34,952 nucleotides of DNA from a virus, in the IMG/VR virus record IMGVR_UViG_3300024520_000263, positions 1 through 34,952 of that record; one strand, given 5' to 3'. A program made the position numbers and the translations under genes. Of the stretch, positions 5,875-21,165 are shown piece after piece. Under the pieces are notes generated by a model. It searched no databases. It worked only from the letters and a program-made list of their open reading frames with translations, and had not been told where the DNA came from. The first letter of the stretch is position 1. Every line of letters begins with the position of its first letter.

Positions 5875-7959
5875 GTGGCCCGTGGAAAAGACTTCAAGAG
5901 CAAGGCGCAGTTCATCCTCGAAGGTAAGGATGAGCTGAAGGGTCCGTTCCGTTCCGCCAAGTCCTCTGTCGGTGGGTTCGTGAACGACCTCGGGCCTGCC
6001 AAGATTGCGCTCGGTGCCTTCGCGGTCGCCGGGGCCGCAGCGGCCGCCGCCGTTGTTCACCTCGGCTCCAAGATCGTGTCCACCGCTGGCGAAGTCTCCA
6101 TCCTGGGTGACCGCTACGACAAGCTGAGCACGCGCCTCGGAACCTCCGTCGAGGATCTGTCCCGGTACGATTTCATCGCCAAGCGATCCGGGATCACCAC
6201 GCAGAACATGACGCTCGCCGTCCAGCGAATGACGCGGCGCCTGGCCGAAGCCCAGGGCGGCACGGGTGTCGCTGTGAAGGCGCTGGAAGACCTGAACATT
6301 CCGATCGAGCACTTCGACGATATGGAACCCGCCGAGATGTTCCGTGCGGTGCTGTCGGCGATCGACGACGTGGAGGACCCGACCAAGCGACTCGCCACGG
6401 CGTTCAAGTTTTTCGACTCCGAAGGTACGGCGGTCCTTCAGACGCTCCAGGGTGGCATCGAAGGTTTCGATGCGATGGGAAAGAAGGCCGAGGAGTTGGG
6501 CGGGATCATGTCTACCGATCTCGCCACGTCCAGCGCGGTGTACCAGGACAGCCTGACCGACCTCGACACCACGATCCAGGGAATGAAGAATTCGCTGGCC
6601 GAGCAGTTCCTTCCCGTGATGACGGACGTGGTGGAGAAGGTCACGGGGTTCGCTGCGCGCATCGCCTCGAACGACAAGTTCGGAGAGTCGCTCAACTGGC
6701 TCGCCGAGCTGGCTGGCAAGACGACCACGTTTGTGATCGAGGCTACCGAGAAGACCGTCGAGACCGTGGACGGCCTGCACAGCTTCCTCGATCGCGTCAA
6801 GGAGTTCCAGGCGGGCCTGCACGAGTCGGCGGACCTCGTGACGAGCACAACCGGCTTCGGACGGATTGGTGGGAAGCGGGCTCTCCCGGAGGACGATCCG
6901 TTCATCCAGTTCCTGGAGAACCAGGCCAAGGAGCGTGCCCGGTTCAAGCCTCAGGGTGTGCTACCTCAGGCGCCGCCCGCGTTCGGCGACCTGAACCTTC
7001 CCCCACCCGTGCCGCCGGCCGAGCTGTGGGCGCAAGAGCTACAGGCGGCTCTCGAACAACTGCGGGCCATCGACGCTCCCGACTTCGTGCCCGCGCCGCT
7101 CGACGGTGTGCTGCCAGCGCCGTTCTTGCCCGGCGATACCGGCAACCCGCTCGGCGAGCTACCGCAAGGGCTTGAGGGTGGCCTGGGTGTCGAGTCGGCT
7201 CTGACGTTCCCAGAGCCAGACGAGATGGAAAAGATGCTGGAGGTCTTGACCACCGCCGAGGGTCTGGCGATCGACACCAAGGGCGGGATCATCACGCTGC
7301 CGAAGCCCGAGGAGATGGACAAGGCGACCCAGCAGATGGTCGAAGCCAAGATGGCCGTGGACAACTTCGGCGACGCGGCCGAGCAAGCGTTCATCGACGA
7401 CTTCTCCCGAGGCGTGGAGAACATGATCGAGGGCATCGGTCAGATGGCCGTGGAGTCGATCCGCACGGGCGAGAGCTTCGGCGACGCGATGCAAGCGATG
7501 TGGGACGGGTTCATCGACACGCTGCTGTCGTCGCTCATCACTCTAATCGTCAAGCTGACCGTGGCCGCGATCCTCCAGTCCTACCTCGGCATGGGTAATC
7601 CGAACGCCGCGTCCAACGTGAACAAGCTGCTTACTGGATTCCAGAAGGGTGGGCACGTTGGTCGCGAGTCCGGGATTGTTGGTCGGGGCGACATCGTTCC
7701 GGCGATGCTGGACCCGCGCGAGTTCGTGCTGAACCCGGCGGCCACAGCGTCGATCGGTGTGGCCGACCTGTACCGGCTGAACCGCGGACTGCCCATCGAG
7801 GCGGCGTCGGTCCCGCGTCCGGCCCCGGCGGATCTCATGGGAGCGAACGGTAGGATGGACCTGCACGTCCACACGATCTATGCCGACCAGTCAGGAGCGC
7901 GAACGATGGTTGAGGAGATTCACGCACACATGGTGGACGCTGGGTTGGTGGCGGCATGA
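5875..7959 (+). CDS. Tail tape measure protein
   Basis: The protein has 694 residues from GTG 5875 (GAGGG about 7 bases upstream). It has a lysine-rich N-terminus and an Ala-rich hydrophobic segment (residues 42-62). Long helices follow in the first 310 residues, then a proline-rich stretch (about 320-420). A hydrophobic C-terminal segment (about 545-575) is followed by G-G-H-V-G and a typical P-A-M-L-D-P-R-E-F-V tail. This last motif recurs at the C-terminus of many phage tape measures. The length corresponds to a tail of roughly 100 nm by the usual 0.15 nm per residue rule. The stop overlaps the next ATG. Confidence 0.9.
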   Translation: MARGKDFKSKAQFILEGKDELKGPFRSAKSSVGGFVNDLGPAKIALGAFAVAGAAAAAAVVHLGSKIVSTAGEVSILGDRYDKLSTRLGTSVEDLSRYDFIAKRSGITTQNMTLAVQRMTRRLAEAQGGTGVAVKALEDLNIPIEHFDDMEPAEMFRAVLSAIDDVEDPTKRLATAFKFFDSEGTAVLQTLQGGIEGFDAMGKKAEELGGIMSTDLATSSAVYQDSLTDLDTTIQGMKNSLAEQFLPVMTDVVEKVTGFAARIASNDKFGESLNWLAELAGKTTTFVIEATEKTVETVDGLHSFLDRVKEFQAGLHESADLVTSTTGFGRIGGKRALPEDDPFIQFLENQAKERARFKPQGVLPQAPPAFGDLNLPPPVPPAELWAQELQAALEQLRAIDAPDFVPAPLDGVLPAPFLPGDTGNPLGELPQGLEGGLGVESALTFPEPDEMEKMLEVLTTAEGLAIDTKGGIITLPKPEEMDKATQQMVEAKMAVDNFGDAAEQAFIDDFSRGVENMIEGIGQMAVESIRTGESFGDAMQAMWDGFIDTLLSSLITLIVKLTVAAILQSYLGMGNPNAASNVNKLLTGFQKGGHVGRESGIVGRGDIVPAMLDPREFVLNPAATASIGVADLYRLNRGLPIEAASVPRPAPADLMGANGRMDLHVHTIYADQSGARTMVEEIHAHMVDAGLVAA

Positions 7960-9887
7960 GCTTCTTCCCCATTCTCCAGTCGGCGCCTCGACGCCACGGG
8001 ATCGTCGCGACTCCGGTGCATAGTCCCTGGACGGGAACGTCGGAGCCTTACTACGGCGTCTGGTATCTTGGCGACGTCCCGGCGTCCCTGGTCCTCACGG
8101 CGCTGGGCACCGGCACCGTGGGTGCTGGGACCCTCGTGGTGTCGTACACCGACGGCCTGGGAAACACGGGCTCGTTCTCGATCGGTTCCGACTACACGGC
8201 CGACGATCCCATTCAGCTTGCGGACGGGACCGTTACGGTTCACTTCCCGGCTGGCACCACCGTCGTCACCAACGTGTCTACCGTCGCCCTGACTCCCTCG
8301 AACGAGATCATCCCGGGACACCAGAAGGTGGTCGGAGAGATGACTCCGACCGCTGTCGAGTTCGAGCGCACGATTCCGATGGACCGGGACGACGTGTTCA
8401 CCTCGTGGGACTACCGTGTGAAGAAGGCGGCGCGGGCGATCCTGCGCGCCCCGGCTGTGCGCCTCGACCACGTTGAGGAGGCTGGGCGCTTGGCGGTGCA
8501 GCGCATGAAACACAATCGGCATCTGGTGACGCTCGGGGAGAACTACGACGAGACCACGCAGCTCCTGTGGCGGGGTAGCAACGGCGCCATGCCCATCGTC
8601 GGTCCGTATCCCGTCTACACACACGATGTCTCCAAGGTGTACTTCGACCCGGACGTCCAGCTTCTGCGAACGGTAGCAGCCTCGACGGTCGGGCCGGGGG
8701 GGGCGCCGCTCAACGTCTCGGCCAGTCCGGCAGTCGATCGGATGCTCCAGCTTCACCATCCCGACGCCGACGAGAACCTGATCCAGCAGTCGCACCCGGT
8801 GACCGGCGCGAGCGGCTGGCAGATCCAGACGGGGACCCCCACCATCTCGATCGTTCGGGACGTGCCCGATGTGATCGACCTGGATGATGCTGGGTTCCCG
8901 GCTGGGTTCTCTATCGGGGTGGTCCGCTGTGACATGGACGCGACCGAAGCGGTGGAGTGTCCGAACACCACGGTGTCGAGCGGGATTTACTACGCCTCGG
9001 GTGTTTGGTTGCGCGGGCGCGGCTCGGTGGATGTGGAGTTCAACGCCGGAGGCACGAAGGACACCGCCGTCGTCACGCTTACCTCGTCGTGGCAGTGGGT
9101 AACCGTGAGCGGCCTCACGTCGGCCACGACGTTCAATCTGGAGATTGTCGCGAACGACAACTCCGTCGTGTACATCTCGATGGTCGGGCTGAACGCGGGC
9201 CGGGCGGCCGCGCAGCCGATGCCCACCAATGGCGGGGCGATCAACGGGGCCGGGGACGCCTTCCATTTCCCAATCGTGCCGTCCCTGGAAGCGGGGTCGA
9301 TCAGCCTGTGGGTGCTGGACCTCATGGACCCTGCGACGGGTAGCCAGCGTGCGATCTGCGACGGCGGCACGGGTGACTTCGCCATCCTGTACGACTACGC
9401 CAACAACGAGCTGGACCTACGACACCTGGCCGCCGGGACGCTGCTGTCTGGTTCGGCGGATATCACCGACGGTGAGATACACCAGATCGCCGCGACCTGG
9501 GAGAAGGGTGCGGGCAACACGATCTCCCGCTCCCTGTACTTCGACGGGGCTGTGATCGCCGGACCCACCACGACAAGCTCGTGGGACTACGCCTGGGCCG
9601 ACAAGCTCCGTCTCCTGGGCGACCTGGGTGCCGACATCGATTCGATGATGTTCGCGGAGGTGCGTGTCGATCGCCAAGCCTGGACCGCCGCCGAGGTGCT
9701 GTCGCAGTACGAGCGATTCACACAGTCCCATTGGATTGAGCTGCACCGCGAGCTGGCCGGTCGGCAGTTCTGGTTCCAGTCGTTGCAGGAGACCCGTCGC
9801 TCCAAGTCGAACCCCGGGCAGTGGCTCATCGACGCACAACTGCTGGAGGGTAACAGCGAAGACTCCGGCCTGGTGCTGATGCGATGA
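7956..9887 (+). CDS. Distal tail protein with LamG/ConA-like domain
   Basis: The protein has 643 residues. The first 250 include tail-type sequence (T-P-T-A-V-E-F-E-R-T-I-P and F-T-S-W-D-Y-R-V) in the slot normally held by the distal tail protein. Residues about 430-580 look like a concanavalin A/laminin-G jelly roll: S-I-S-L-W-V-L, then I-H-Q-I-A-A-T-W, L-Y-F-D-G and a final A-E-V-R-V-D-R-Q-A-W segment. Such domains bind carbohydrate, so this protein may contact host surface glycans as well as closing the tail tip. ATGA overlaps exist at both ends. Confidence 0.7.
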   Translation: MSFFPILQSAPRRHGIVATPVHSPWTGTSEPYYGVWYLGDVPASLVLTALGTGTVGAGTLVVSYTDGLGNTGSFSIGSDYTADDPIQLADGTVTVHFPAGTTVVTNVSTVALTPSNEIIPGHQKVVGEMTPTAVEFERTIPMDRDDVFTSWDYRVKKAARAILRAPAVRLDHVEEAGRLAVQRMKHNRHLVTLGENYDETTQLLWRGSNGAMPIVGPYPVYTHDVSKVYFDPDVQLLRTVAASTVGPGGAPLNVSASPAVDRMLQLHHPDADENLIQQSHPVTGASGWQIQTGTPTISIVRDVPDVIDLDDAGFPAGFSIGVVRCDMDATEAVECPNTTVSSGIYYASGVWLRGRGSVDVEFNAGGTKDTAVVTLTSSWQWVTVSGLTSATTFNLEIVANDNSVVYISMVGLNAGRAAAQPMPTNGGAINGAGDAFHFPIVPSLEAGSISLWVLDLMDPATGSQRAICDGGTGDFAILYDYANNELDLRHLAAGTLLSGSADITDGEIHQIAATWEKGAGNTISRSLYFDGAVIAGPTTTSSWDYAWADKLRLLGDLGADIDSMMFAEVRVDRQAWTAAEVLSQYERFTQSHWIELHRELAGRQFWFQSLQETRRSKSNPGQWLIDAQLLEGNSEDSGLVLMR

Positions 9888-12999: not shown

Positions 13000-13424
13000 A
13001 TCTGATCGAGTCGATCGTGGCACACGAGGGTGTGGTGCGCTCCGGCAAGCTGCACATCGCTTACCGGGACCACAAAGAGAAGCTGACCATCGGGCACGGG
13101 TGCCTACTGGACGACCGTTTGGAAATCTCGGACGAGGTAGCCGAGCTGCTGCTCGTCGCCGAGATCGCAGAGAAGGCCGGGCGCCTTCGGAACGTGCGGG
13201 GGTGGGAAGAGGCTGGTCCGGTACGAAAAGACGTTCTGCTGGAGATGGCGTTCTGGCTGGGTGTCGGTGGCTGCCTTCGGTTCGTGAAAATGTGGAATGC
13301 GGTGCGGCATTCCGATTGGCCGAGGGCAGCCGCAGAGATGCGCGACTCTCGCGTGTGGAGAGATCCCAAGACGCGGGGGCGCATGAACACCCTCGCGAAC
13401 CGAATGGAGACGGGCACATGGTGA
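12996..13424 (+). CDS. Endolysin, T4-type lysozyme (GH24)
   Basis: The protein has 142 residues. The N-terminal part aligns by eye with T4 lysozyme: catalytic Glu11 in H-E-G, Asp25 in Y-R-D, and Thr31 in T-I-G-H-G. These match the Glu-Asp-Thr triad (E11, D20, T26) of the GH24 family. The C-terminal R-D-S-R-V-W-R-D-P-K-T-R-G-R segment matches the arginine-rich stretch before the final helix. It hydrolyses the MurNAc-GlcNAc bond of peptidoglycan. No signal or anchor sequence, so it needs a holin for release. The length is slightly short for the family. Confidence 0.88.
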   Translation: MNLIESIVAHEGVVRSGKLHIAYRDHKEKLTIGHGCLLDDRLEISDEVAELLLVAEIAEKAGRLRNVRGWEEAGPVRKDVLLEMAFWLGVGGCLRFVKMWNAVRHSDWPRAAAEMRDSRVWRDPKTRGRMNTLANRMETGTW

Positions 13425-13945
13425 AGAAGGCGACGGGCACGAACCACCTACACGCTCTGGACGTCGTGGCCATTGACATCGACGACCTGACGCTGGACCC
13501 CGCGAACGCCCGTGAGCACTCGGAGCGTTCCATCGCGGTGATCGAGAATTCCCTCAAGGAGTTCGGCCAGCGCAAAGCGATCGTGGTCCGCAAGTCGGGC
13601 ATGGTCGTACACGCGGGCAACGGCATGGTGACGGCGGCGAAGCGCCTGGGCTGGAAGCAGGTTGCGGCGACCGTCATGGACGAGGACGAGCTGCGTGCCG
13701 TCCGCTACGGCCTGGCCGACAACCGGACGGCCGAGCTGTCGTCGTGGAACGAGGTCGCGGCGCGGGAGCTGCTGGCGCTTCCCGACATCGACGTGGCGCA
13801 CTTCGGGTTCACCGACGAGGACCAGGCGCAGATCTTCCCGGCGCTCTCTGGTGCGGACGTGGGTGAGTTCCCCGACCCGGCCGGGGGCGAGGCTCCGTAC
13901 TGCTGTCCGAAGTGTGGGCACGAGTGGTCCGGTTCGGCGCGATGA
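13418..13945 (+). CDS. ParB-like nuclease-domain protein with C-terminal zinc knuckle
   Basis: The protein has 175 residues from ATG 13418, inside the last codons of the lysozyme gene. Residues 20-110 show the ParB/sulfiredoxin N-terminal pattern: L-D-P-x-N-A-R-E-H-S-E, then I-E-N-S-L-K-E-F-G-Q-R-K-A-I-V-V, then V-V-H-A-G-N-G-M-V-T-A-A-K-R-L-G-W. The usual Arg of the G-[HN]-x-R box is Met here (G67-N68-G69-M70). The C-terminus ends C-C-P-K-C-G-H-E-W (162-170), a single zinc-type knuckle common in phage ParB proteins paired with DNA methylases. It overlaps the methyltransferase gene by 4 bases. A role as partner or specificity factor for DNA modification is inference. Confidence 0.75.
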   Translation: MVKKATGTNHLHALDVVAIDIDDLTLDPANAREHSERSIAVIENSLKEFGQRKAIVVRKSGMVVHAGNGMVTAAKRLGWKQVAATVMDEDELRAVRYGLADNRTAELSSWNEVAARELLALPDIDVAHFGFTDEDQAQIFPALSGADVGEFPDPAGGEAPYCCPKCGHEWSGSAR

Positions 13946-14922
13946 AGGTCGCCTCCTTCTTCTCGGGATGCGGGGGCTCGTGCCTCGGCTTCGAGCAGGC
14001 AGGGTATGAGGTCGTGTACGCAAACGAGTTCATCCCGTCCGCCCGCCTGACCTACGCGGCCAACCATCCGAACGTGCCGATCGACGAGCGCGACATCCGC
14101 GAGGTGAAGGCCGAGGACATTCCCGAGACGGACGTCATCGAGGGCTCGCCCCCGTGTTCGTCCTACTCGACCTCGGGCAAGCTCTCCAAGGGCTGGGGGA
14201 AGCCCAAGCACTACTCCGACGGCGTGAAGCAGCGCACCGACGATCTGCTCGGCGAGTACGTGCGGATCGTGAAGGGCGTCCAGCCCCGCGCCTTCGTCAT
14301 GGAGAACGTGCCATCCCTGACCCGTGGGAAGTCCCTCGGTGTGTTCAAGAACCTGATGCGCGACCTGGCGGACGGCTACCACGTCGAGTCCCGTCTGATC
14401 GACGCGAGCTGGCTGGGTGTCCCGCAGGCCCGCGTGCGCCTGTTCATCATGGGCTTCCGCGACGACCTGGGTGTGACGGCGTGTCCCTGGCCGGCGCCGC
14501 TCCCGGAGCGCGCCACGATCGGGGAGCACCTTCCCTGGCTGCTGGACGGAGACCTGCCCCCGGATCTGGACGAGTGCCCCGTGTCCCTGGAGGGCTACAA
14601 GATCCGTGGGCACGCCGAGGCCCTGGTCCCGGGTGAGAAGTCGTGGAAGCGACACAACTTGCGGGTCGCGCACCCTGGCCAGCCCTGCCCGACCATCACC
14701 CAGGTGGGCGTCATCAACCCTGGCTCGGCTGGCGTGATCGCCCCGTGCGGCACGAGGAAGTTCACGCTGCTGGAGCTCCGACGGCTGTTCGGGTTCCCGG
14801 ACGACTTCAAGCTGGTGGGGACGTGCCCACAGAAGTTCGAGCGCCTGGGCCGCGCGGTGTGCCCGCCGGTGATGAAGGCGTTGGCACTCGGCATACGGGG
14901 AGTGCTAGATGAAGGTCGGTGA
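13942..14922 (+). CDS. Cytosine-C5 DNA methyltransferase with altered motif X (candidate DNA carboxymethyltransferase)
   Basis: The protein has 326 residues from ATG 13942 (ATGA overlap). C5-methyltransferase motifs appear in order: I, F-F-S-G-C-G-G (6-12); IV, G-S-P-P-C-S-S-Y-S (68-76) with nucleophile Cys72; VI, E-N-V-P (121-124); VIII, Q-A-R-V-R-L-F (162-168); IX, R-R-L-F-G-F-P-D-D-F (280-289); X, G-R-A-V-C-P-P (303-309). A short target-recognition region of about 105 residues lies between VIII and IX. Motif X is normally G-N-[AS]-V; here Asn is Arg304 (codon CGC 14851-14853). That Asn lies next to the SAM methyl group, and Lys or Arg there is reported to let an engineered enzyme accept carboxy-SAM. 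The CmoA-like gene that follows makes this the probable carboxymethyl donor user. No restriction partner is visible. Confidence 0.9.
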   Translation: MKVASFFSGCGGSCLGFEQAGYEVVYANEFIPSARLTYAANHPNVPIDERDIREVKAEDIPETDVIEGSPPCSSYSTSGKLSKGWGKPKHYSDGVKQRTDDLLGEYVRIVKGVQPRAFVMENVPSLTRGKSLGVFKNLMRDLADGYHVESRLIDASWLGVPQARVRLFIMGFRDDLGVTACPWPAPLPERATIGEHLPWLLDGDLPPDLDECPVSLEGYKIRGHAEALVPGEKSWKRHNLRVAHPGQPCPTITQVGVINPGSAGVIAPCGTRKFTLLELRRLFGFPDDFKLVGTCPQKFERLGRAVCPPVMKALALGIRGVLDEGR

Positions 14923-15610
14923 CGGGATCGACGCGGAACGCGGGGACTTCCGGTTCGACGAGAAGGTGGCCGGGAAGTTCGACGAGCACGTGGGCGCGAG
15001 CGTGCCCGGGTACGACGACGTGCAGACCCTCGTGTCGATCCTCTCCGACTTCTACAGCGCGGAGGGGGGCGTCATCTACGACCTGGGGTGCGCTACAGGA
15101 ACGACCCTCCAGCGCCTCCAGCGCCACGCAGAGACGTGTCGGCTGGTCGGGCTCGACGCCAGCGCCCCGATGTGTACCCGCGCCCGTCAGAAGGTCCCGG
15201 AGGCGACCATCCTCCAGAGCGACCTGGACGAGCGGCAGGAGTTCCCGGACGCGTGCCTCGTGATCTCGCTGTTCACGCTCCAGTTCGTGCGCCTCGATCG
15301 ACGGCGGGCTGTGCTGGAGTCGGTACGGCGCGGTCTGCTTCCAGGCGGGGCGCTGTTCCTGTTCGAGAAGGCGTGGCCCGACTCTCCCCGGGTCGCCGAG
15401 AGCATCCGGCAGTTCCACCACGAGCTGAAAGGCCGGAACGGCTTCACACCGGCCGAGGTGTGGGGGAAGGACCGGAGCTTGCGCGGCGTGATGACGCCGC
15501 TCACCGTGGGGGAGAACGCGCGCCTTCTGTCGGAGGCGGGCTTCACTACCGTGGAACGGATCTGGACACACGGGCCGTTCGCGGGCTGGCTGGCGGAGGC
15601 ACCGTTATGA
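14909..15610 (+). CDS. cmoA: CmoA-type carboxy-S-adenosylmethionine synthase
   Basis: The protein has 233 residues. It matches E. coli CmoA (247 residues) over its length by eye: F-D-E-K-V (16-20), S-V-P-G-Y (31-35, identical), motif I Y-D-L-G-C (57-61), motif II Asp83, F-T-L-Q-F (122-126), L-L-P-G-G-A-L and H-H-E-L-K-G-R-N-G-F (170-179), then A-G-F near residue 211. CmoA converts SAM plus prephenate to carboxy-SAM plus phenylpyruvate. The carboxylate-binding Arg199 of E. coli aligns with Asp188, but Arg189 follows directly, so the Arg may be shifted by one. No CmoB (the tRNA-modifying user of carboxy-SAM) is present. The start overlaps the DNA methyltransferase by 14 bases and the end overlaps the DAHP synthase fusion. 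Confidence 0.85.
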   Translation: MKVGDGIDAERGDFRFDEKVAGKFDEHVGASVPGYDDVQTLVSILSDFYSAEGGVIYDLGCATGTTLQRLQRHAETCRLVGLDASAPMCTRARQKVPEATILQSDLDERQEFPDACLVISLFTLQFVRLDRRRAVLESVRRGLLPGGALFLFEKAWPDSPRVAESIRQFHHELKGRNGFTPAEVWGKDRSLRGVMTPLTVGENARLLSEAGFTTVERIWTHGPFAGWLAEAPL

Positions 15611-16554
15611 GCCGAGAGCAATTGAACGAGCTGACGGAAGAGATCGACGACCTGATCGCCACGCGGGATGTGCTGGCGGCCAAGGTGATCCGGGAGAAGA
15701 CCGGGGCACCCTACGACCCACACAGGGAGGCGGAGCTGGGCTCAGAGGACGTCTGGCTCCCGATCCTGCGACGGGTGCGCACGCTCGTCGGAGCCGATGT
15801 CGGGTTGGGGCGCCTGCCGATACGGGAGCCCGCCATTCGCGGGCACGGGTTCCAGCTCATCGCCGGACCCTGCTCGGTCGAGAGCGAGGAGCACGCCAGG
15901 GTGACGTGTGCCGGGCTCTCCGAGTACGGGATTCTGTACGTCCGGGGTGGGTGCTGGAAGCCGCGGACGTTCGCCTCGTCCTGGAGGGGCCACGGGTTCG
16001 ACGCGGTGACCTGGCTGGGCGAGGCCGCACACGAGAACCAGCAGCGCACCGTCGTGGAGATCCTGGACCCCCGGCACTTCGACGACCCTGGCGTCCAGAC
16101 CTTCGTGGACGTGGTGCAGATCGGAGCGCGGAACGGCCAGAACTATGCGCTCCTCGAGGCGGCACGGGAGTTCGGTAGGCCGGTCCTTCTGAAGCGGGCG
16201 CCGGGCGCCACGGTCGAGGAGTGGCTGGGTGCGTCCGACTACCTGGGGGACGTCCCGGTGACGCTCTGCGAGCGAGGCGTGGTGGGGTTCGACCCGTGCC
16301 TACGGAACCAGCTCGACCTGCCCGGAGCGATCCTGGCGAGGGCGCTGGGCTCCGTCTCGGTGATCGTGGACCCGTCGCACGCCACGGGGATCTCGGCGCT
16401 GGTGCTGCCCCTGACGCTCGCGGCCAAGGCTGCTGGGCTCGACGGCGCGATGGTCGAGGCGCACCCGTGCCCGGTCGAGGCATTGACCGACGCCGAGCAG
16501 ACCGTCACGCTGGACTATGTTGGGGTGATGCTCCGGCACCTCGCCGACCTCTGA
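15607..16554 (+). CDS. aroA/aroG-type fusion: Chorismate mutase-DAHP synthase fusion
   Basis: The protein has 315 residues. Residues 1-62 align without gaps to the first helix of AroQ chorismate mutase. Arg3, Arg20, Lys31, Asp37, Arg40 and Glu41 match E. coli R11, R28, K39, D48, R51 and E52, so most active-site residues are kept; the third helix is shortened. Residues 82-315 are a type I-beta DAHP synthase: G-P-C-S-V-E-S (87-93, metal Cys89), R-G-G-x-x-K-P-R-T (113-121), Q-I-G-A-R-N (171-176), L-L-K-R (194-197), C-E-R-G (221-224), D-P-S-H (255-258) and V-E-A-H-P (283-287). This is the Bacillus AroA layout. It would drive carbon into the shikimate pathway and turn chorismate into prephenate, the co-substrate of the CmoA-type enzyme encoded just upstream. 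Confidence 0.9.
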   Translation: MSREQLNELTEEIDDLIATRDVLAAKVIREKTGAPYDPHREAELGSEDVWLPILRRVRTLVGADVGLGRLPIREPAIRGHGFQLIAGPCSVESEEHARVTCAGLSEYGILYVRGGCWKPRTFASSWRGHGFDAVTWLGEAAHENQQRTVVEILDPRHFDDPGVQTFVDVVQIGARNGQNYALLEAAREFGRPVLLKRAPGATVEEWLGASDYLGDVPVTLCERGVVGFDPCLRNQLDLPGAILARALGSVSVIVDPSHATGISALVLPLTLAAKAAGLDGAMVEAHPCPVEALTDAEQTVTLDYVGVMLRHLADL

Positions 16555-20100: not shown

Positions 20101-21165
20101 ATGGCACACATGATCCTGGGCGACAGGTTCGCCCACCGCAACGCTCCTGGCTGGCACAACATCGCTCGCAAGACCTGGGCGCCTGACGAGACCATCACCG
20201 CGACCGAGGCAGCGGTCGAGGTGGCCGGTGACGTTCACGTCGAGAAGTACCCGCTGTACTACCGGCGGAACGAGAACGGCATTCACGTCGAGAGCAAGTC
20301 GGCGCAGAGCGTCATCGTGCGCCGGCCGCTGCCGGACGACGACAAGTGGCTGGAGCTTGGAACGACTGGCGACCGATGGACGGCCGCGTCGTACAAGCAG
20401 CTCGCCGGAGCCCTCGACGGAATGGCGTATCCGATCGAGACGGCGGGCCTGCTCAAGCAGGGGGGCCTGATGTTCCTCTGCTTCCGCGCGCCAGACTGGG
20501 CCGTGAAGGGCGACGAGATGCGTTCCTACTTCGCGGCGAACTTCTCTCTCACCCCCGGTGTCGGACACAAGGTCTTCCACTCGCCGATCCGGGTCGTCTG
20601 CTGGAACACGAACACGGTCGCGGAGAACCAAGCCACGATCAACCTGTCCATCCCGCACACACCGGACGCGCTCCAGCGGATCAAGCTGGCGGCGGACCTG
20701 GCCATGCAGTTCGAGAGCGTGCGGAACAAGACCAAGGAGGTGTTCGAGTCGTTCGCCGGATACCACATCACAGAGAAGGAGGCGGGCATCATCTTCCGCG
20801 CGGCGTTCCCGGAGCCAGCACTTCCGGCCAAGCTCAGACTTCTCAAGCAGACGTTGTCGAGTACCGAAGCGGAGACGTTCAAGCAGGCGATGACGCCGGA
20901 CCTGCTGATGGGTCTCCAGAAGGAGGAGGAGAAGTACGAACGGAAGGTGCAGACGGTCGCGGCTCTGATGGAAGCCTCGCGCGAAAGGTTCGAGGTCTTC
21001 GAGCCCGCCAACATGAGAGGGACGGCCTGGGCAGCGTACAACGCGGTGACCGAGGTGTCCGACTGGCGCGAGGGCCGAGGGGCAGACGAGTCCCTGGTGA
21101 TGGGCAAGCGTGCTGGCGAGAAGGCGCGGGCGTACAGCGCGGCCAGCAAGTTGGTAACCGCGTGA
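20101..21165 (+). CDS. DUF932 / phage-plasmid-like protein
   Basis: The protein has 354 residues. It matches the DUF932 (phage/plasmid-like) family layout: an N-terminal M-A-H-M-I-L with W-H-N near residue 18, a central strand-rich part, then R-V-V-C-W-N-T-N-T-V (near 161-170), and a long helical C-terminus. In most members the last motif reads R-[IV]-V-C-x-N-T. Proteins of this family are widespread in phages and plasmids; their biochemical role is not firmly known, with links to recombination or DNA-protection functions suggested. It is followed by a GTGA-overlapping small gene. Confidence 0.8.
   Translation: MAHMILGDRFAHRNAPGWHNIARKTWAPDETITATEAAVEVAGDVHVEKYPLYYRRNENGIHVESKSAQSVIVRRPLPDDDKWLELGTTGDRWTAASYKQLAGALDGMAYPIETAGLLKQGGLMFLCFRAPDWAVKGDEMRSYFAANFSLTPGVGHKVFHSPIRVVCWNTNTVAENQATINLSIPHTPDALQRIKLAADLAMQFESVRNKTKEVFESFAGYHITEKEAGIIFRAAFPEPALPAKLRLLKQTLSSTEAETFKQAMTPDLLMGLQKEEEKYERKVQTVAALMEASRERFEVFEPANMRGTAWAAYNAVTEVSDWREGRGADESLVMGKRAGEKARAYSAASKLVTA

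Follow-up and report, generated by a model that had tools for sequence, protein, structure and literature searches.

Carboxymethylation of DNA has been described in Synechococcus phage S-B43, in which CmoA makes carboxy-S-adenosylmethionine (Cx-SAM), CmoX writes 5-carboxymethylcytosine (5cxmC) at GC, and CmoY adds glycine to the 5cxmC (Yang et al., Nat Commun, 7 Dec 2025, PMC12783734). The S-B43 transferase, SpCmoX, binds the carboxylate of Cx-SAM through Arg350, substitution of which by Asn abolished activity, and the wild-type enzyme was reported to use Cx-SAM exclusively (PMC12783734). The same study counted thousands of phage CmoX and CmoA genes (4,257 for CmoA), listed 1660 ParBc neighbours of CmoX, found ligases accompanying many CmoX phages and named the availability of prephenate as needing study, with neither chorismate nor 3-deoxy-D-arabino-heptulosonate 7-phosphate (DAHP) appearing in its main text (PMC12783734). 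Here we describe a four-gene cluster at positions 13418-16554 of the IMG/VR virus record IMGVR_UViG_3300024520_000263, the whole 34,952-base stretch of which we refer to as the window. We propose that the cluster is a phage DNA hypermodification operon that combines the writing of 5cxmC with a phage-borne booster of prephenate, a reading to which we assign a probability of about 0.8.

First, the protein encoded at 13942..14922 (METHYLTRANSFERASE; 326 aa, on the + strand like all features of the cluster) is predicted to be a CmoX-type DNA cytosine C5-carboxymethyltransferase: it matches Pfam DNA_methylase (E 3e-54), the PDB entry closest to it in sequence is 8YF3, SpCmoX solved with Cx-SAM (E 3e-44), and it is 34% identical to S-B43 CmoX. 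Alignments place the catalytic nucleophile, Cys72 (14155..14157), in an SPPC motif (GSPPCSSYS), and in motif X (ERLGRAVCPPV) they place Arg304 (14851..14853, within ERLGRAV) at the position of the usual Asn (HhaI Asn304), aligned with SpCmoX Arg350 (PMC12783734). This agrees with the claim, made in an initial annotation of this DNA, that the enzyme carries the motif X change described as admitting Cx-SAM in an engineered enzyme. By analogy with S-B43, we infer that the window enzyme transfers the carboxymethyl group from Cx-SAM to DNA cytosine.

Next, the gene that overlaps it by 14 nt (14909..15610) probably encodes a CmoA-type carboxy-SAM synthase of 233 aa, which matches TIGR00740 (E 1e-39, 136 bits, the next family being unrelated and far behind), PHROG 4752 (E 9e-54) and PDB 4gek, the E. 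coli CmoA (E 2e-32), and is 28% identical to the experimentally active S-B43 CmoA. Last, 15607..16554 is predicted to encode a type I-beta DAHP synthase (DAHPS) of 315 aa with an N-terminal AroQ-like region (PRK08673, E 9e-71; TIGR01361, E 7e-66; DAHP_synth_1, E 8e-45). Nine catalytic or metal-site residues of this enzyme, comprising the Cys, His, Glu and Asp metal ligands and the Lys and Arg residues of the site for phosphoenolpyruvate (PEP) and erythrose 4-phosphate (E4P), are all kept (C89, K118, R120, R175, K196, R223, H258, E284 and D295). Family matches make the predicted identities of the methyltransferase, CmoA and DAHPS clear; the ParB assignment of the 175-aa ParB_N-like product of 13418..13945 carries moderate confidence (PHROG 620, E 1e-29; Pfam ParB_N, E 4.5e-5, below the cut-off). 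The four identities, with a reservation on chorismate mutase, and the arrangement given in the initial annotation stand, the genes following one another with overlaps of 4, 14 and 4 nt in a way that resembles a translationally coupled operon.

The Arg of motif X is tied to CmoA well beyond the window. Loci were collected with CmoX, CmoA and DAHPS profiles (up to 80 loci per scan), and contigs of metagenome-assembled genomes (MAGs) were scanned with CmoX. Among CmoA-bearing loci with a readable motif X, Arg was present in all ~164 and Asn alone in 0; where CmoA was lacking, Asn was seen in 66 loci (overlapping fetches retained in both counts). Clustering at 60% identity gave 33 clusters with Arg and CmoA, 34 with Asn and no CmoA, 1 mixed and 5 with Arg and no CmoA. 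The initial annotation had pointed to methyltransferase variants in phages that lack any CmoA gene as potential counter-evidence, and most of the Arg loci without a flanking CmoA turned out to have one elsewhere, either on the same record (L254, L255 and L380) or in the same MAG (L279 and L324); for the remaining three (L270, L390 and L397), the locus is at the end of a contig or the record is short. This check thus spoke for the proposal, motif X Arg and CmoA co-occurring almost without exception.

Two loci of this collection have unusual transferase genes. On L240 (6062-8612), CmoA is followed in a row by a C5-methyltransferase whose motif X reads CSGVPS, of neither the Arg nor the Asn type, and by a DAHPS split over two frames. 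On L255 (118-3277), a fusion of DAHPS and chorismate mutase (CM) precedes two different tandem CmoX genes, both of the Arg type, and the 3′ end of CmoA lies at contig position 2-118; the two CmoX enzymes possibly serve two target sites.

Co-occurrence of the CmoA, CmoX and DAHPS or CM genes in further phages, which the initial annotation had named as a check, was observed repeatedly and in several architectures. A single-protein scan of IMG/VR with the window DAHPS found no relative, and an alignment-based DAHPS scan recovered relatives, among them three loci in which DAHPS stands beside CmoA and an Arg-type CmoX. In these, CM is a separate gene after DAHPS (L055, CmoX..CmoA-DAHPS-CM), a separate gene flanked by CmoA and DAHPS (L056, CmoX-ligase-CmoA-CM-DAHPS) or a C-terminal fusion (L108, CmoA-DAHPS/CM-CmoX), each time above the Pfam cut-off. 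Wider scans revealed the DAHPS/CM fusion between CmoA and CmoX (L251 and L255) and the order CmoA-DAHPS/CM-ligase-CmoX (L253, where a terminase gene lies downstream, and L254/L265). The remaining cases were recovered by CmoA or CmoX scans rather than by DAHPS or CM searches: CmoA-CM-CmoX, with CM but without DAHPS, in L149; CM-CmoX followed by CmoA in L392 and L409; and ParB-CM-CmoX-CmoA in many Verrucomicrobiota prophage loci. The Pfam CM_2 match exceeded its cut-off in all linked loci tested, the window excepted, and the nine catalytic or metal-site residues are kept in every unbroken DAHPS linked to CmoA or CmoX.

CmoA was found on 8 of ~62 DAHPS-bearing viral contigs. With 517 CmoA matches in 2.9 million contigs, ~0.01 such contigs would be expected, or ~0.1 using the 4,257 CmoA genes reported earlier (PMC12783734); by our own estimate, differences in contig size could lift this expectation a few-fold, not hundred-fold. 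CM was lacking from 28 CmoA records that the initial scans gave. In a maximum-likelihood tree of the DAHPS barrels, L108, L251, L253, L255 and L192 group with Hymenobacter and Telluribacter enzymes in a 100/100 split, and the window, L055, L056 and L240 stand apart from that group, with no settled branching among these four; the split indicates at least two recruitments of DAHPS. Together, this recurrence in several phage lineages strongly supports the claim that the phage brings its own prephenate supply.

Several records touch on the supply genes in other ways. Verrucomicrobiota MAGs hold several related prophages each, with ParB-CM-CmoX(Arg)-CmoA (L283-L285, L289-L291, L294-L296, L298, L300 and L301), and in L289 these genes adjoin DNA polymerase, terminase and portal genes. 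A 74.6-kb virus contig (L192) carries CmoA and a full DAHPS/CM fusion 5 kb apart (1225-2295 and 7550-8302), separated by three ParB-type genes; the contig lacks CmoX, and its CmoA may serve another transferase. On a 9.3-kb phage fragment (L057), CM and DAHPS genes overlap each other (1407-2361) beside genes resembling those for uracil-DNA glycosylase, deoxycytidine monophosphate deaminase and DNA polymerase, and neither CmoA nor CmoX is on the fragment. DAHPS matches in GenBank phage records were set aside, being mostly unverified, unannotated assemblies resembling host DNA, with one annotated KdsA; OR844993, OR846630, OR848333 and others are unverified "phage" assemblies with full-length bacterial-type DAHPS genes that are probably host DNA.

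On this basis we suggest the following pathway for the window phage. Phage DAHPS would condense PEP and E4P into DAHP and raise flux through the shikimate pathway, host enzymes would carry the product to chorismate, and chorismate would be converted to prephenate by the AroQ-like N-terminus if that is active and otherwise by the host CM. Phage CmoA would then make Cx-SAM from SAM and prephenate, and CmoX, through Arg304, would use Cx-SAM to turn cytosine of the phage DNA into 5cxmC; both steps were shown in S-B43 (PMC12783734) and are proposed here from matching features, which lends support to the carboxymethylation chemistry of the initial annotation. Prephenate would as a result not limit genome-wide modification, and the likely benefit would be resistance to host restriction. 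That DAHPS and its CM-like region serve Cx-SAM synthesis, and that the window phage makes 5cxmC, we infer from sequence.

Several observations weigh against this proposal. The window CmoA scores 136 bits where the NCBIfam equivalog cut-off is 193, and the other phage CmoAs considered here also fall below it. It further lacks Arg199, which in E. coli CmoA forms a salt bridge with the carboxylate of Cx-SAM (PMC3663124), Asp188 being there by alignment; the active S-B43 CmoA lacks this Arg as well. Most CmoA/CmoX phages do without flanking supply genes: when CmoA was clustered at 70% identity, 77 of the 86 clusters had neither DAHPS nor CM in the fetched flanks. Supply genes are thus not obligatory, and the 9 of 86 clusters with DAHPS and/or CM give a biased rate because several cases were found via DAHPS searches. 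In the window itself, residues 1-65 of the DAHPS (15607..15801) match CM_2 (PF01817) at 17 bits (E 0.007, all Pfam) against a cut-off of 27, 1 of 10,000 shuffles outscores the region with a phage-CM profile and others come near, and the C-terminal part of AroQ is missing. Across the phage CmoAs of the alignment (window, S-B43 and others) the Arg199 equivalent is mostly not kept, the proven S-B43 enzyme being among those without it, and the Cx-SAM carboxylate must be bound differently in them; its absence from that proven enzyme led us to drop Arg199 as a criterion for phage CmoA.

The shortened CM-like region is the weakest part of the supply reading. The initial annotation had called the protein a chorismate mutase-DAHP synthase fusion, of which the DAHPS part holds and the CM part, at its subthreshold score, is weaker than stated. 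It may be that the N-terminus is a leftover, or a regulatory or assembly element, and that prephenate comes from the host mutase, an alternative that falls only a little short of an even chance. The weak profile match and the missing part of AroQ speak for it, as does the predicted structure, in which helices 3-32 and 46-65 have low pLDDT (a per-residue confidence score) and the barrel is mostly confident; in known bacterial fusions, moreover, the CM domain also regulates DAHPS. Against it, six AroQ active-site positions are kept: in the multiple alignment, R3, R20, K31, D37, R40 and E41 fall on such positions, correctly spaced inside each of the groups R3-R20-K31 and D37-R40-E41, and the Gln88 equivalent is not identifiable. 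We take the AroQ active site to comprise, in E. coli numbering, Arg11, Arg28, Lys39, Asp48, Arg51, Glu52 and Gln88. An earlier alignment that set Arg11 on Thr10, and so lost it, was rejected, as the multiple alignment gives Arg3 with the right spacing. The CMs of Verrucomicrobiota phages are similarly short yet above the CM_2 cut-off, and phage CMs such as those of L289 and L409 are shortened alike. In our view the window N-terminus is about as likely as not to have CM activity; without it, DAHPS would still increase chorismate and, via the host mutase, prephenate.

5cxmC could also be an intermediate that an unrecognised ligase amidates, as CmoY does in S-B43, which we consider unlikely, though worth keeping in view. 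Ligases go with many CmoX phages (PMC12783734) and, here, with L056, L253 and Streptomyces phage TurkishDelight. In the window, by contrast, no Asn-synthase-type (CmoY-like) ligase was recognised on the whole 34,952-base record, and no ligase domain was found in the ten open reading frames run against Pfam, several of which match no family. 5cxmC may thus be the end product in the window phage, although several reading frames are without a family.

A further alternative accepts that CmoX and CmoA write 5cxmC and takes DAHPS (and CM elsewhere) for a general auxiliary metabolic gene that serves phage protein synthesis by increasing aromatic amino acids, its linkage to the modification genes being incidental. 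DAHPS indeed opens the routes to all of Phe, Tyr and Trp, and on many viral contigs a DAHPS-family gene occurs without CmoA. The recurrent companion, however, is CM, the prephenate step, which joins CmoA and CmoX even without DAHPS (L149, L392, L409 and the Verrucomicrobiota prophages) and is on just 3 of 50 DAHPS records lacking CmoA. The supply genes moreover overlap or abut CmoA or CmoX, and no prephenate dehydratase or dehydrogenase was noticed alongside, although no systematic search for these was made; we therefore regard incidental linkage as improbable. Least credible of all is that the window encodes an ordinary 5-methylcytosine methyltransferase and a CmoA for cmo5U (uridine 5-oxyacetic acid) modification of tRNA, as overall similarity to HaeIII/HhaI-type C5-methyltransferases and the tRNA role of E. 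coli CmoA might suggest, given the tie between motif X Arg and CmoA across loci, the exclusive use of Cx-SAM by wild-type SpCmoX (PMC12783734) and the overlap of the window CmoX and CmoA genes.

The proposed hypermodification operon lies on a virus contig whose G+C content is ~65% and which also encodes terminase, portal, protease, tape measure and endolysin; these genes make the cluster a phage locus rather than a bacterial stretch. Among deposited phages, Megablast with 10 kb gave no close relative. Elsewhere in the window, 20101-21165 encodes a DUF932 protein (Pfam, E 1e-22).

The core 5cxmC chemistry is already published (PMC12783734), and the statement of the initial annotation that no natural phage system was known is out of date because Yang et al. 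showed the CmoA-CmoX system of S-B43. The new part appears to be the phage-borne prephenate-supply module in its several architectures, and its recurrence in unrelated phages was, as far as we found, previously unnoticed; a literature search of open-licence papers for CmoA, phage and chorismate mutase together found nothing. The clusters suggest the phages' own answer to the question of prephenate availability left open by the S-B43 study (PMC12783734). If so, phages would carry an entry enzyme of central metabolism for base modification and not for growth, in a module put together more than once. DAHPS or CM beside an Arg-type C5-methyltransferase would provide a sequence handle for carboxymethylated phage genomes, including Verrucomicrobiota prophages, and the clusters would offer new parts for Cx-SAM production in cells in the service of DNA labelling.

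Among known systems, the window shares with S-B43 a CmoA-type synthase beside a C5-methyltransferase with SPPC and a Cx-SAM-binding Arg, ParB being a common CmoX neighbour. S-B43 differs by a glycine ligase, CmoY, that separates CmoA from CmoX, and by having neither DAHPS nor CM annotated there; in the window, DAHPS with its AroQ-like region is present and a ligase was not recognised. The CmoA and CmoX proteins of the two phages are just 28-34% identical. The engineered M.MpeI N374K (cited in PMC12783734) likewise admits Cx-SAM through replacement of the motif X Asn by a basic residue; that enzyme is engineered and CG-preferring, whereas those of the phages occur naturally and have Arg instead. 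The actinophage TurkishDelight has ParB, an Arg-type CmoX and CmoA in one run (gp121-125), as in the window, but adds a glutamine-amidotransferase/Asn-synthase ligase, with no CM on the record and no DAHPS in the fetched stretch. Bacterial DAHPS/CM fusions have an N-terminal CM in the B. subtilis/Listeria type and a C-terminal CM in the Bacteroidota type; the phage proteins combine the same two enzyme families and keep the DAHPS catalytic residues, and in the tree the enzymes of L108, L251, L253 and L255 group with Bacteroidota-type enzymes. Unlike the bacterial fusions, the phage genes are placed in CmoA/CmoX operons, and in the window the CM region is shortened.

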